This document shows positions 459 through 51,159 of a stretch of DNA of 64,000 nt, piece after piece. How positions within the stretch are numbered: the stretch's first letter is position 1; every line of letters starts with the position of its first letter. The position numbers and the translations under genes were made by a program. This DNA is from Hyphomicrobium sp. (GTDB lineage: Bacteria; Pseudomonadota; Alphaproteobacteria; Rhizobiales; Hyphomicrobiaceae): the NCBI RefSeq assembly GCF_019744875.1, contig NZ_JAIETU010000003.1, positions 186,001 to 250,000 on the forward strand. The letters are read 5' to 3'. Below the pieces are notes generated by a model. That model made no database searches, was not told the origin of the DNA, and was given only the letters and a program-made list of their open reading frames with translations.

Positions 459-650
459 CGCATTGTCCGATCACACGGAATCGGCAAGAGGACCGAGGTG
501 GCTGGATCCTGGCCTCCGCCAGGATGACGTGGACAATGGGCAGTCCGCAGCGACCAATAAATCCGTCACCCTGACGAAGGTCAGGGCCCAGTCACGCCTC
601 AAGCTATGTGACCGAGCAGACAAGCGCGGAGCCGTCAGATTGGAGTTTGC
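455..650. repeat. RIME-like dispersed intergenic element, copy A
   Basis: It begins with CTAGCGCATTGTCCGATCAC over the upstream stop codon and holds two hairpins: ATCCTGGC (506-513) with GCCAGGAT (518-525), and CCCTGAC (569-575) with GTCAGGG (580-586). It ends in a GTCAGATTGGAGTTTGC block. A second copy with the same order lies at 41532-41727, also starting on a TAG stop codon. The layout resembles the Rhizobium intergenic mosaic elements (RIME), but the family name is inferred. Confidence 0.75.
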
Positions 651-41535: not shown

Positions 41536-41727
41536 AGCATTTTCCGATCACACGGCTTCGCGCTCGTCCGCTCGATGAGCATAGCGTGAGGCGTGACTGG
41601 ATCCTGGCCTCCGCCAGGATGACGTTGGGAATGAGCGGTCCGTAGCGACAAATATATCCGTCACCCTGACGAAGGTCAGGGTCCAGTCACCTAGATCTTC
41701 TTGCGGTTCCGTTAGATCGGAGATTGC
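41532..41727. repeat. RIME-like dispersed intergenic element, copy B
   Basis: It begins CTAGAGCATTTTCCGATCAC on the stop codon of the upstream gene, holds hairpins ATCCTGGC (41601-41608)/GCCAGGAT (41613-41620) and CCCTGAC (41664-41670)/GTCAGGG (41675-41681), and ends GTTAGATCGGAGATTGC. The distance between the hairpins (63 nt) equals that in copy A; the flanking parts differ by an indel. Confidence 0.75.
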
Positions 41728-49985: not shown

Positions 49986-50018
49986 TGTCATCCTAGGCCT
50001 TGTGCCTAGGACCTATCC
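49986..50018 (+). repeat. REP-like palindrome, copy 1
   Basis: TGTCATCCTAGGCCTTGTGC followed by CTAGGA: stem TCCTAGGC (49991-49998) and GCCTAGGA (50004-50011). Forms an inverted pair with copy 2, 68 nt away. Confidence 0.8.
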
Positions 50019-50086
50019 CACCGCTTGGGAAAGCGGTAACCGCAGCGCGCGCCGCTTCAAGAAACTCACGTCTCTCCAAGCCGCCC

Positions 50087-50118
50087 AATGGATCCTCGGG
50101 ACAAGCCCGAGGATGACA
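50087..50118 (-). repeat. REP-like palindrome, copy 2 (CTCGGG variant)
   Basis: On the minus strand it reads TGTCATCCTCGGGCTTGTCC followed by CGAGGATCCATT. The outer frame (TGTCATCCT...AGGATCCATT) matches copies 3 and 4, while the inner stem has changed on both sides (AGGC/GCCT to CGGG/CCCG), so pairing is kept. Confidence 0.8.
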
Positions 50119-50210
50119 AGGTGAGCCGGACTTCACCAAAACTGCTAAATCAGCACGGCTCAACGCGACGCCACGCGACGATTGACGCAACCCGCCGCCC
50201 CAACCACCAC

Positions 50211-50242
50211 TGTCATCCTAGGCCTTCTGCCTAGGATCCATT
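50211..50242 (+). repeat. REP-like palindrome, copy 3 (left bracket of GIY-YIG gene)
   Basis: TGTCATCCTAGGCCTTCTGC then CTAGGATCCATT. It is 31 of 32 identical to copy 4 in inverted orientation; the only difference is in the loop. Confidence 0.85.
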
Positions 50243-50281
50243 CCTCAAATCGGGAAAGCAGTGGCAATGTGACCATCCCCC

Positions 50282-50602
50282 TCACCCGTTCATCAATCCC
50301 GGCAACAAATCCTCCCAATGCGGGTTGGTCCTCTCGATGAGGTTCGTCTTCCATTCTCGCGGCCAGCGCTTGAGAGATTTCTCCCTTTGAATCGCAACGG
50401 AGACATCCGCAAACGCCTCAAGATGAACGAGGACCTTCACGGCGTACTTCTTTGTAAAACCTGGAACGAGCCCGTCGCGATGCTCAACTGCCCGTCGCAC
50501 GATGTCATTGGTCACGCCGATGTAGAGCGTGCCGTAGGGTTTGCTCGCAACGATGTAGACGAAGTAGGCGCGCACAACCTCGCTCCGAATTTCGCCGATC
50601 AA
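50282..50602 (-). CDS. GIY-YIG nuclease family protein
   Basis: A 106-residue single-domain protein. YFVYIVASKPYGTLYIGV (13-30) holds the YIV/YIG catalytic strands, TNDIVRRAVEHRDG supplies the conserved Arg and His, and AIQREKSLKRWPREWK carries the catalytic Glu. It belongs to the YhbQ-like stand-alone family, thought to cut structured or mispaired DNA. Its TTG start (50602) touches copy 4 of the palindrome; a GTG at 50575 is an alternative. Bracketed by inverted palindromes, so it may travel with them. Confidence 0.85.
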   Translation of the reverse strand: MIGEIRSEVVRAYFVYIVASKPYGTLYIGVTNDIVRRAVEHRDGLVPGFTKKYAVKVLVHLEAFADVSVAIQREKSLKRWPREWKTNLIERTNPHWEDLLPGLMNG

Positions 50603-50632
50603 TGGATCCTAGGCACAAGGCCTAGGATGACA
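50601..50632 (-). repeat. REP-like palindrome, copy 4 (right bracket of GIY-YIG gene)
   Basis: On the minus strand TGTCATCCTAGGCCTTGTGC then CTAGGATCCATT. Stem TCCTAGGC (50607-50614 on the plus strand) and GCCTAGGA (50620-50627). Confidence 0.85.
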
Positions 50633-51159
50633 AGCCAGGACACATCGCGTTCGATCAGCGAAGGATCGCGCGCGGGGAATGACCTGTGACGGGCGGCCCC
50701 ATCCGCGCAGCGCCACATCCGCAAGAAAATCAGCGCCGTACTTGTCCACATCTGTGGACGGTGGCCGGGAAAGCAAAGACGGGCGGGCCCCAAAAGCGCA
50801 ATATGAACAAAGAGAACGTAAGGCGCGGCGAGGGAGTGGAAACGCTTGCCGCAGCGCCCCAAAGGCGAGGCTTCCCGTAGCGTAGAGCCCGCCTCAAGCC
50901 CTTCTCACCGGAAAGGCTGAGCACGTCTCTCCAGTTGCGTCCCCGCAAGCGTAGCGCGTCCCAAAACGCGCGTGAGCGGACAAGCGTCCACCAGGTAAAG
51001 CGTCCATCAGGTAAGAGTATCGAGGCACGGAACGGCTCCCTTCGCACGAGGGTGACCATGGCCGCCTTCATTCCACGGCTTGCCCGGATTGCATCCGGCA
51101 TCGGGTCGACTGGAAAGCGCTCCGCCCCGCAAGGCGACGGAACGCTGAGGTCCGGCAGC
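50633..51159. other. gene-poor stretch with a 16-bp palindrome
   Basis: About 530 bp. GTCCACA (50744-50750) and TGTGGAC (50753-50759) form a perfect inverted repeat; TTGTCCACA there also resembles a DnaA box. A minus-strand frame of 149 codons (50730-51179) spans most of it but has no clear ribosome binding site or family and overlaps the next gene. From memory, such blocks recur in other Hyphomicrobiales genomes, so it may be repeat-derived; not verified. Confidence 0.4.

Follow-up and report, generated by a model that had tools for sequence, protein, structure and literature searches.

Known CGTC-tagged repeats and the palindromes of the window

CGTC-REPs have been defined by the tag CGTC, which is TGTC in many members (also CCTC), and by a stem of 8–9 bp beginning with A-T; the loop is 4–5 nt, the tail is mostly CCA, dimers and heterodimers occur, and the dRS3 repeats of Neisseria are included in the class (Di Nocera, De Gregorio and Rocco 2013, PMC3733652, in the sections of that paper that were accessible). 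According to the same sections, a dedicated transposase is apparently absent for CGTC-REPs, only a few fortuitous links to transposase genes being recorded, and the features of the RAYT/REP system are a small gene between inverted REPs, an unpaired tetranucleotide tag and an uneven distribution (PMC3733652). The dRS3 repeats are present in almost 700 copies in Neisseria, where together with RS elements they make up the NIMEs, and a filamentous phage of Neisseria integrates at them (PMC3898611, from extracts of the paper). A link between GIY-YIG genes and REPs was not found in the open-licence literature, preprints excluded and mostly at the level of titles and the beginnings of abstracts, and an earlier description is possible. 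In the portions available, one report gives RayT and a GIY-YIG endonuclease as separate, unlinked accessory genes (PMC9465073); another describes two Caulobacter GIY-YIG genes, CCNA_00744 and CCNA_01405, that are under regulation in phage infection, XRE regulators of both host and phage repressing them, with REPs unmentioned (PMC10688885); and neither RepRanger 2025 (PMC12306157) nor the 2018 HUH survey (PMC6006769), each represented by part of its text, mentions GIY.

The window, by which we mean the whole stretch of 64,000 nucleotides that was analysed, contains four 32-bp palindromes. Two of these (copies 3 and 4) bracket a GIY-YIG gene, as the sequence-only reading had reported, and we find them to be inverted, 97% complementary over 32 nt and separated by 358 nt; the other two (copies 1 and 2, beginning at 49986 and 50087), which it had described as an inverted pair without a gene, do form a doublet, of 133 bp. 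The features discussed below are as follows.

503–529, minus strand: second-family CGTC-REP (CGTCATCCTGGC... type)
41598–41624 (minus) and 41659–41685 (plus): second-family CGTC-REP pair, tag-inward, within a larger conserved repeat
49986–50632, no strand: REP doublet plus gene element; site without REP in 6/6 searched genus relatives
49986–50017, plus strand: REP copy 1 (CGTC-type; CCTAGG stem, TGTC tag facing outward), at the left of the 133-bp gene-less doublet
50027–50034, plus strand: subterminal motif GGGAAAGC in the doublet, 11 nt inside the REP; 8/8 at offset 11
50087–50118, minus strand: REP copy 2 (CGTC-type, CCTCGGG stem), right end of the 133-bp doublet
50211–50632, no strand: complete gene-bearing element, 422 bp from tag to tag, REP copies 3 and 4 enclosing the GIY-YIG gene
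50211–50242, plus strand: REP copy 3 (CGTC-type), terminus of the gene-bearing element next to the 3' end of the gene
50252–50259, plus strand: subterminal motif GGGAAAGC in the gene element, 11 nt inside, as in the doublets
50282–50575, minus strand: GIY-YIG nuclease gene (PF01541), 97 aa from GTG 50575 (106 aa from TTG 50602)
50601–50632, minus strand: REP copy 4 (CGTC-type), terminus of the gene-bearing element next to the 5' end of the gene

All four copies consist of a TGTC tag, a 9-nt arm, a 5-nt loop, a second 9-nt arm and a tail. The tail is CCA in three of them and CTA in copy 1, and the stem pairs over 9 nt in three and over 8 in copy 1, where the outermost pair is lost; as single-stranded DNA, all four are predicted to fold into hairpins (−8.1 to −10.2 kcal/mol, z −3.4 to −5.1). 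Copies 3 and 4 share one stem type; copy 1 has a CCTAGG stem vs CCTCGGG in copy 2, and the doublet is therefore heterotypic. The arm TGTCATCCTAGG has six matches in the window at up to 2 mismatches, namely the four copies and two weaker ones elsewhere, where 2.1 are expected, and none of 100 shuffles reaches six. The genome-wide count that the sequence-only reading had proposed places the palindrome at 28 sites (≤3 mismatches; reversed control pattern, 0), and the generic CGTC-REP pattern has 48 matches in the same genome. A search for structured RNA gave only two weak Rfam matches, outside the element and far under the Rfam cut-offs. In tag, stem, loop, CCA-like tail, dispersal and dimers, heterodimers included, the window repeats agree with the published anatomy; judged by sequence, they are members of the CGTC-tagged REP superfamily, and as repeats they are thus already known.

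The unit also resembles a REPtron, in that one small gene stands between inverted REPs, gene-less doublets occur elsewhere, an unpaired tetranucleotide serves as tag and the distribution is uneven. It differs in enzyme, RAYT being a HUH tyrosine transposase (PF01797) of a fold unrelated to that of the GIY-YIG nucleases, and in tag, which is GTAG in REPtrons vs CGTC-type (TGTC) in the window. Since the gene belongs to PF01541 and no match to PF01797 was found in its own genome, the unit is not a REPtron member, though it may work like one; the same null result rules out a RAYT as mobiliser of the window REPs within this genome. The analogy with RAYTs and REPs drawn in the sequence-only reading thus holds for the anatomy and not for the presence of a RAYT, and the role in spreading or processing REPs that it suggested is still an inference. 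The repeats are known, and the arrangement with a GIY-YIG partner is REPtron-like yet lies outside REPtrons by enzyme and tag. Whereas the CGTC-REP survey, in its accessible sections, reports no dedicated enzyme and does not mention GIY (PMC3733652), a GIY-YIG gene is here the recurrent partner.

The GIY-YIG gene and its bracketing by REPs

The protein encoded between copies 3 and 4 matches PF01541 with E 1.2e-11 and 45.2 bits (cut-off 22.6), and the gene is a member of the GIY-YIG nuclease superfamily; nuclease activity itself is inferred. A TTG start touching copy 4, as first proposed, is doubtful, since conservation in the family starts near residue 12–15, and an in-frame GTG at 50575, which lies 25 bp from copy 4 and yields a 97-aa protein, fits the N-termini of the family. 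The expected GIY-YIG residues are present (Y16, Y27-I-G29, R37 and E74 in the 106-aa numbering), and Y16, G29, R37, H41 and E74, which we take to be positions of the catalytic type, are invariant in two alignments of 38 family members. The structure model has a mean pLDDT of 90.5, and its nearest folds are UPF0213 (1zg2) and Slx1-Slx4, although the Foldseek scores are modest and no E-value falls under 0.001 (Slx1 6seh, E 2.2e-3); a profile search also returns 1zg2 as the nearest solved relative (E 1.8e-8), so that stand-alone UPF0213 proteins and Slx1 are the closest solved structures by profile or fold. GIY-YIG homing endonucleases share the catalytic domain, and TIGR01453, the NCBIfam family of group I intron endonucleases, matches 9 of the 38 members, though not the window protein. 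The present family differs from them in that no intron host was seen, the proteins have 97–106 aa with little beyond the catalytic domain, and the genes are intergenic between REPs. An origin as a defence or phage gene was rejected, as no PADLOC or PHROGs family matches the window protein.

In each of four close pairs of family members, among which the window gene is not included, dN is lower than dS, with codons changed synonymously and non-synonymously in the proportions 3:0, 8:4, 5:4 and 2:0; a fifth pair is identical. Such conservation, together with the presence of Slx1, a branched-DNA nuclease, among the closest folds (6seh, Foldseek E 2.2e-3), would be in keeping with an enzyme that serves its host by trimming or resolving REP hairpins and cruciforms and that sits among REPs because its expression is under their control. 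We nevertheless consider a host-serving nuclease quite unlikely, because the distribution is patchy and multi-copy (0 to 11 GIY-YIG matches per genome, weak ones included), because broken copies of the gene lie between intact ends, and because a housekeeping gene would need no REP on both sides in several phyla.

The bracketing recurs among relatives of the window protein, which was matched in 38 of the 60 genomes searched, its own included. The window-relative set comprises 61 strong matches whose flanks could be used, own-genome members among them (two more lie at contig ends); in 44 of these the best inverted match between the 350-nt flanks beats every in-locus control, where 2.1 would be expected. 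Tagged units were detected on both sides in 28/61, vs 13/2083 control positions, on one side only in 12/61, and not at all within 250 bp in 21/61. A named-genome set was formed from the best 80 of at least 578 confirmed relatives. After omission of five loci at contig ends and two with fewer than 10 controls, the inverted flank match ranks first in 55/73 of these best-scoring loci (2.3 expected) and not first in 18/73. With the same restriction to the best 80 of at least 578, units with tags outward stand on both sides of 50/76 genes, vs 4/1934 controls, and on one side only of 25/76, the former being an excess of about 300-fold over in-locus controls, whose positions overlap and hence are not independent. 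The two subfamily members in the window's own genome, which are 51–52% alike and have different palindromes, are both REP-bracketed.

The enrichment at GIY-YIG loci that had been put forward as a check is therefore found, and it is specific: GIY-YIG genes of the same genomes that are less closely related to the window subfamily are bracketed in 0/10 cases, vs 3/282 controls, which rules out a bracketing of all stand-alone GIY-YIG genes. This count leaves out three fragments adjoining strong copies (L056, L090 and L097); with the fragments kept, the looser flank test ranks 3 of 13 weaker GIY-YIG matches first (L115, which has one control, L118 and L120). Our stricter first REP detector found both sides occupied in 21/60 and one side in 14/60, and two such units at 0/8 distant GIY-YIG genes, the same three fragments again left out; the later tagged-unit detector is looser than the first and was run with controls. 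The strict tag-stem-tail motif occurs 0.71 times in the 250 nt adjoining each side of the gene and 0–0.02 times per 250 nt at 1–4.75 kb, the last distance bin (4750 bp, 5 sides) being an edge artefact. A chance association or annotation artefact, for which nothing speaks beyond the ordinary abundance of short palindromes, deserves next to no credence in the face of the approximately 300-fold excess (best 80 of at least 578) and of a genome-level co-occurrence with p of about 1e-14, described below. One of the loci with an adjoining fragment, L056 (G011:C51, about 126–128 kb), holds tandem GIY-YIG units 92% alike over 802 bp in addition to the gene fragment, a local amplification.

Among the matches listed, loci with both ends carry the labels Anaerolineae, Planctomycetes, Nitrospira, Chloroflexi, Patescibacteria/Moraniibacteriota, deltaproteobacteria and alpha-, beta- and gammaproteobacteria; many come from metagenome bins, and taxon labels may be wrong. 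In the plasmid collection both ends are present at 11/16 loci, several of them near-duplicates, from Neisseria gonorrhoeae (2), Rhizobium, Neorhizobium, Shinella (3), Sphingobium (3) and Aeromonas, and two proper units are lacking at 5/16 (two Sinorhizobium, R. tumorigenes, Photobacterium and Planktothrix). The gonococcal loci (L123 and L124) have the GIY-YIG gene inside a dRS3 repeat array, and their records, called plasmids, are yet 2.2 Mb and chromosome-sized. On the Planktothrix agardhii plasmid (L136, 2740–3600), the homologue lies near TGTCATTCTGAGTGAAACGAAGAATCTC-type repeats, with a type IIL R-M gene on one side and the DISARM gene drmA on the other, and a repeat search found no inverted pair around it.

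The two ends of a locus belong together. In the 78 loci with both ends, in which the named set is again the best 80 of at least 578, end-to-end similarity averages 0.736 within a locus vs 0.393 between loci, and an end's own partner beats 95% of random partners in 55% of these loci. Protein identity rises with REP similarity (Mantel r 0.38, 0/2000 permutations), a correlation from which shared host ancestry was not removed and to which it contributes.

Occupied and empty sites, doublets and gene content

Presence/absence variation, the lack of which the sequence-only reading would have counted against itself, is found both in the window's genus and on plasmids. The neighbours of the window site are conserved in six relatives of the same genus (G001–G006; G007 was left out), none of which has a REP there, and their GIY-YIG matches, if any, are located elsewhere. 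On Sphingobium plasmids, the unit lies between fnrL and a response-regulator gene in TYG46, MM15, MM7A and TYG73 (and in three more by coverage), the TYG73 copy of the gene being apparently frameshifted, and is absent from this site in TYG74, TYG72, TYG64 and TYG65. Shinella plasmids have the site filled in WSC3-e and HZN7, and no tagged unit in the four others read.

Two of the empty Sphingobium sites, those of TYG64 and TYG74, retain one symmetric, doubly tagged palindrome, consisting of the outer half of each end. This bears on a homing-like process, in which the nuclease would cut solitary REPs, themselves the homing sites, and repair of the break would copy the gene unit into the cut REP: an empty site would keep a single REP-like palindrome where relatives have palindrome, gene and palindrome, the ends of a locus would match closely, as expected from gene conversion, and the TIGR01453 matches to 9/38 members, the window protein not among them, would find a place. 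However, the palindrome of TYG64 and TYG74 can also come from plain deletion between 7-bp direct repeats, no lone REP-like palindrome is present at the empty sites of TYG72 and TYG65, of the Shinella plasmids or of the window's genus, and the gene-less doublets, too, are dispersed as tag-to-tag units. We regard homing into REPs as unlikely, if the first alternative to be kept in mind.

No exact insertion junction was found in the material searched for one. Three 50-kb stretches of S. meliloti pSymB contain 1, 0 and 0 CGTC units by our detector and gave no high-identity empty site, and a 262-bp indel between Rhizobium tumorigenes 932 and L51/94, considered as an insertion, reads as a deletion between direct REP copies. 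A target-site duplication of more than 1 nt was seen in 0/11 own-genome pairs; not all mobile elements make one. Of the features of mobile elements, presence/absence among relatives and internally deleted copies with intact ends are thus met, and target duplication is not. Doubly tagged symmetric palindromes number 17 in G040, against 0–6 in other genomes and 0–2 for a control pattern; some are REP-like, and those of G040 are possible footprints of excision or deletion.

The outer boundary of the repeat lies at the tag. The window's REP family was compared in 31 units: similarity continues into the unit for about 19 nt, and outside the tag it dies away over about 10 nt, where a pyrimidine-rich trend is strongest at the first base. 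The motif GGGAAAGC lies 11–12 nt inside in 13/31 units and on the outer side in 0/31 at five offsets (1/31 anywhere in 40 nt); as it stands at exactly 11 nt inside in the gene element, it is common to gene-less doublets and gene element. The tag-outward doublets of this family are heterotypic, with one CCTAGG-like and one CCTCGG-like stem, in 8/9 cases (window 49986–50118, L045, L245, L246, L249, L253, L257 and L261), the exception being in L046, and the gene element has two CCTAGG ends. A list of 54 own-genome units, limited to those within our search thresholds (≤3 mismatches; generic pattern), contains three outward neighbouring pairs with a gap above 100 bp (up to 2 kb considered); two of them enclose the genome's two GIY-YIG genes, and the third (C2, 715 kb) is composite and without one.

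Among 14 loci fetched for partial or doubtful protein matches, five (L263, L271, L273, L275 and L276) contain gene remnants between matching inverted ends with tags outward. Two of these, L275 and L276, come from different contigs of the same genome and are 96% alike over a 358-bp stretch that extends somewhat past the REP-like ends. Furthermore, L274 is a broken near-full copy with inward end repeats and L270 is full length; the remaining loci show no clear pair or lie at contig ends. REPINs are non-autonomous doublets relative to RAYTs, and the simplest account of the gene-less doublets is likewise that they derive from the gene element or are mobilised by it. As short gene-less units with inverted ends they are also like MITEs and NIMEs, from which the window family differs in lacking target duplication (11 own-genome pairs) and in having full hairpins as ends.

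Genomes with the gene are, as a rule, richer in REPs. In 192 other genomes drawn over the class, with a strong match defined as a best E below 1e-15, the median number of matches to the generic CGTC-REP pattern is 11 in 56 genomes with a strong match, 1 in 22 with a weaker match only and 1 in 114 with none; at least six matches occur in 35/56 genomes with the subfamily vs 11/136 without (odds ratio 18.9, p 1.3e-14). When each family is represented by a single genome, the counts are 20/32 vs 5/72. The nearest 59 relatives (own genome left out) show a weaker association, with medians of 14 in 33 genomes with the gene vs 4 in 26 without (p 0.008), in part because the genus relatives G002, G003 and G005, the last two fragmented assemblies, have 25, 103 and 84 REP matches and no protein match. 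Two class genomes without the gene hold 88 and 66 REP matches, and 11/56 genomes with it have at most two matches to the generic pattern. REPs are thus abundant in some gene-less genomes, so that either they outlive the nuclease gene or another enzyme serves them, and it is chiefly this persistence that speaks against a strict dependence on the nuclease.

These REP-rich genomes without the gene, and the filamentous phage of Neisseria that integrates at dRS3 (PMC3898611, from extracts), leave room for a passenger, the REP pairs being moved by a RAYT, an insertion sequence or a phage integrase and merely happening to carry the gene. We judge this improbable, given that the same GIY-YIG subfamily is enclosed repeatedly while more distant GIY-YIG genes are not (0/10), that the own genome has no RAYT match, and that the links of CGTC-REPs with transposase genes were few and fortuitous in the accessible sections of the 2013 survey (PMC3733652). 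Homing into REPs, host processing of REPs and the passenger remain open, in this order.

A possible minimal mobile element

Our preferred reading, which we hold to be probable without being secure, is that the 422-bp unit is a self-supporting minimal mobile element composed of REP ends and a nuclease, of which the doublets are gene-less derivatives, cleavage and movement being inferred. What we observe is a bracketing that spans the family and is specific to the subfamily, with ends that match each other and a limit of similarity at the tag; the presence of the unit is lineage-specific, derivatives with internal deletions exist, dN is lower than dS in four close pairs of family members, and gene and REPs co-occur at genome level; no cleavage, excision or new insertion was observed in the genome comparisons. 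The element would have as its ends two inverted CGTC-REP hairpins, with tags outward and CCA tails inward, and as its sole gene a GIY-YIG endonuclease that would recognise its own class of ends, while the REP doublets of about 130 bp would be non-autonomous relatives with the interior deleted, standing to the element as REPINs stand to RAYTs. In a putative cycle, the REP may extrude or fold as a hairpin, for which we have only the fold predictions; the nuclease would then bind hairpin and tag and hydrolyse DNA at or near the tag, and repair or ligation by the host would move or copy the tag-to-tag unit to a new site without target duplication, both of these steps being inferred. GIY-YIG enzymes hydrolyse DNA, and no strand-joining activity of theirs is known; any move must therefore be completed by something else.

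More broadly, we put forward, at about even chances, that CGTC-REPs, dRS3 included, are the ends or remnants of an unrecognised class of small mobile elements, in which a nuclease of about 100 aa with a GIY-YIG domain acts on REP hairpins with lineage-specific palindromes, a counterpart of RAYT/REP that evolved independently. The recurrence of the pairing suggests that this nuclease drives a large class of bacterial repeats that had lacked a known driver. For repeats that occur in several phyla, the association names an enzyme candidate that can be tested, it suggests that two unrelated enzyme chemistries reached the same arrangement of tagged hairpin repeat and small partner gene, and it offers a compact pair of nuclease and hairpin for biochemistry. 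It also bears on genome rearrangement in Neisseria, with its almost 700 copies of dRS3 (PMC3898611, from extracts).

The second REP family of the window's genome (L243, L247, L248 and L262) forms tag-inward doublets with spacers of 32–49 nt and partly conserved outer flanks, in contrast to the outward ends of the GIY-YIG gene that belongs to it in the same genome. Downstream of the gene element, where relatives do not align, two near-identical 16-bp tandem copies of AAGCGTCCAYCAGGTA occupy window positions 50982–51013.
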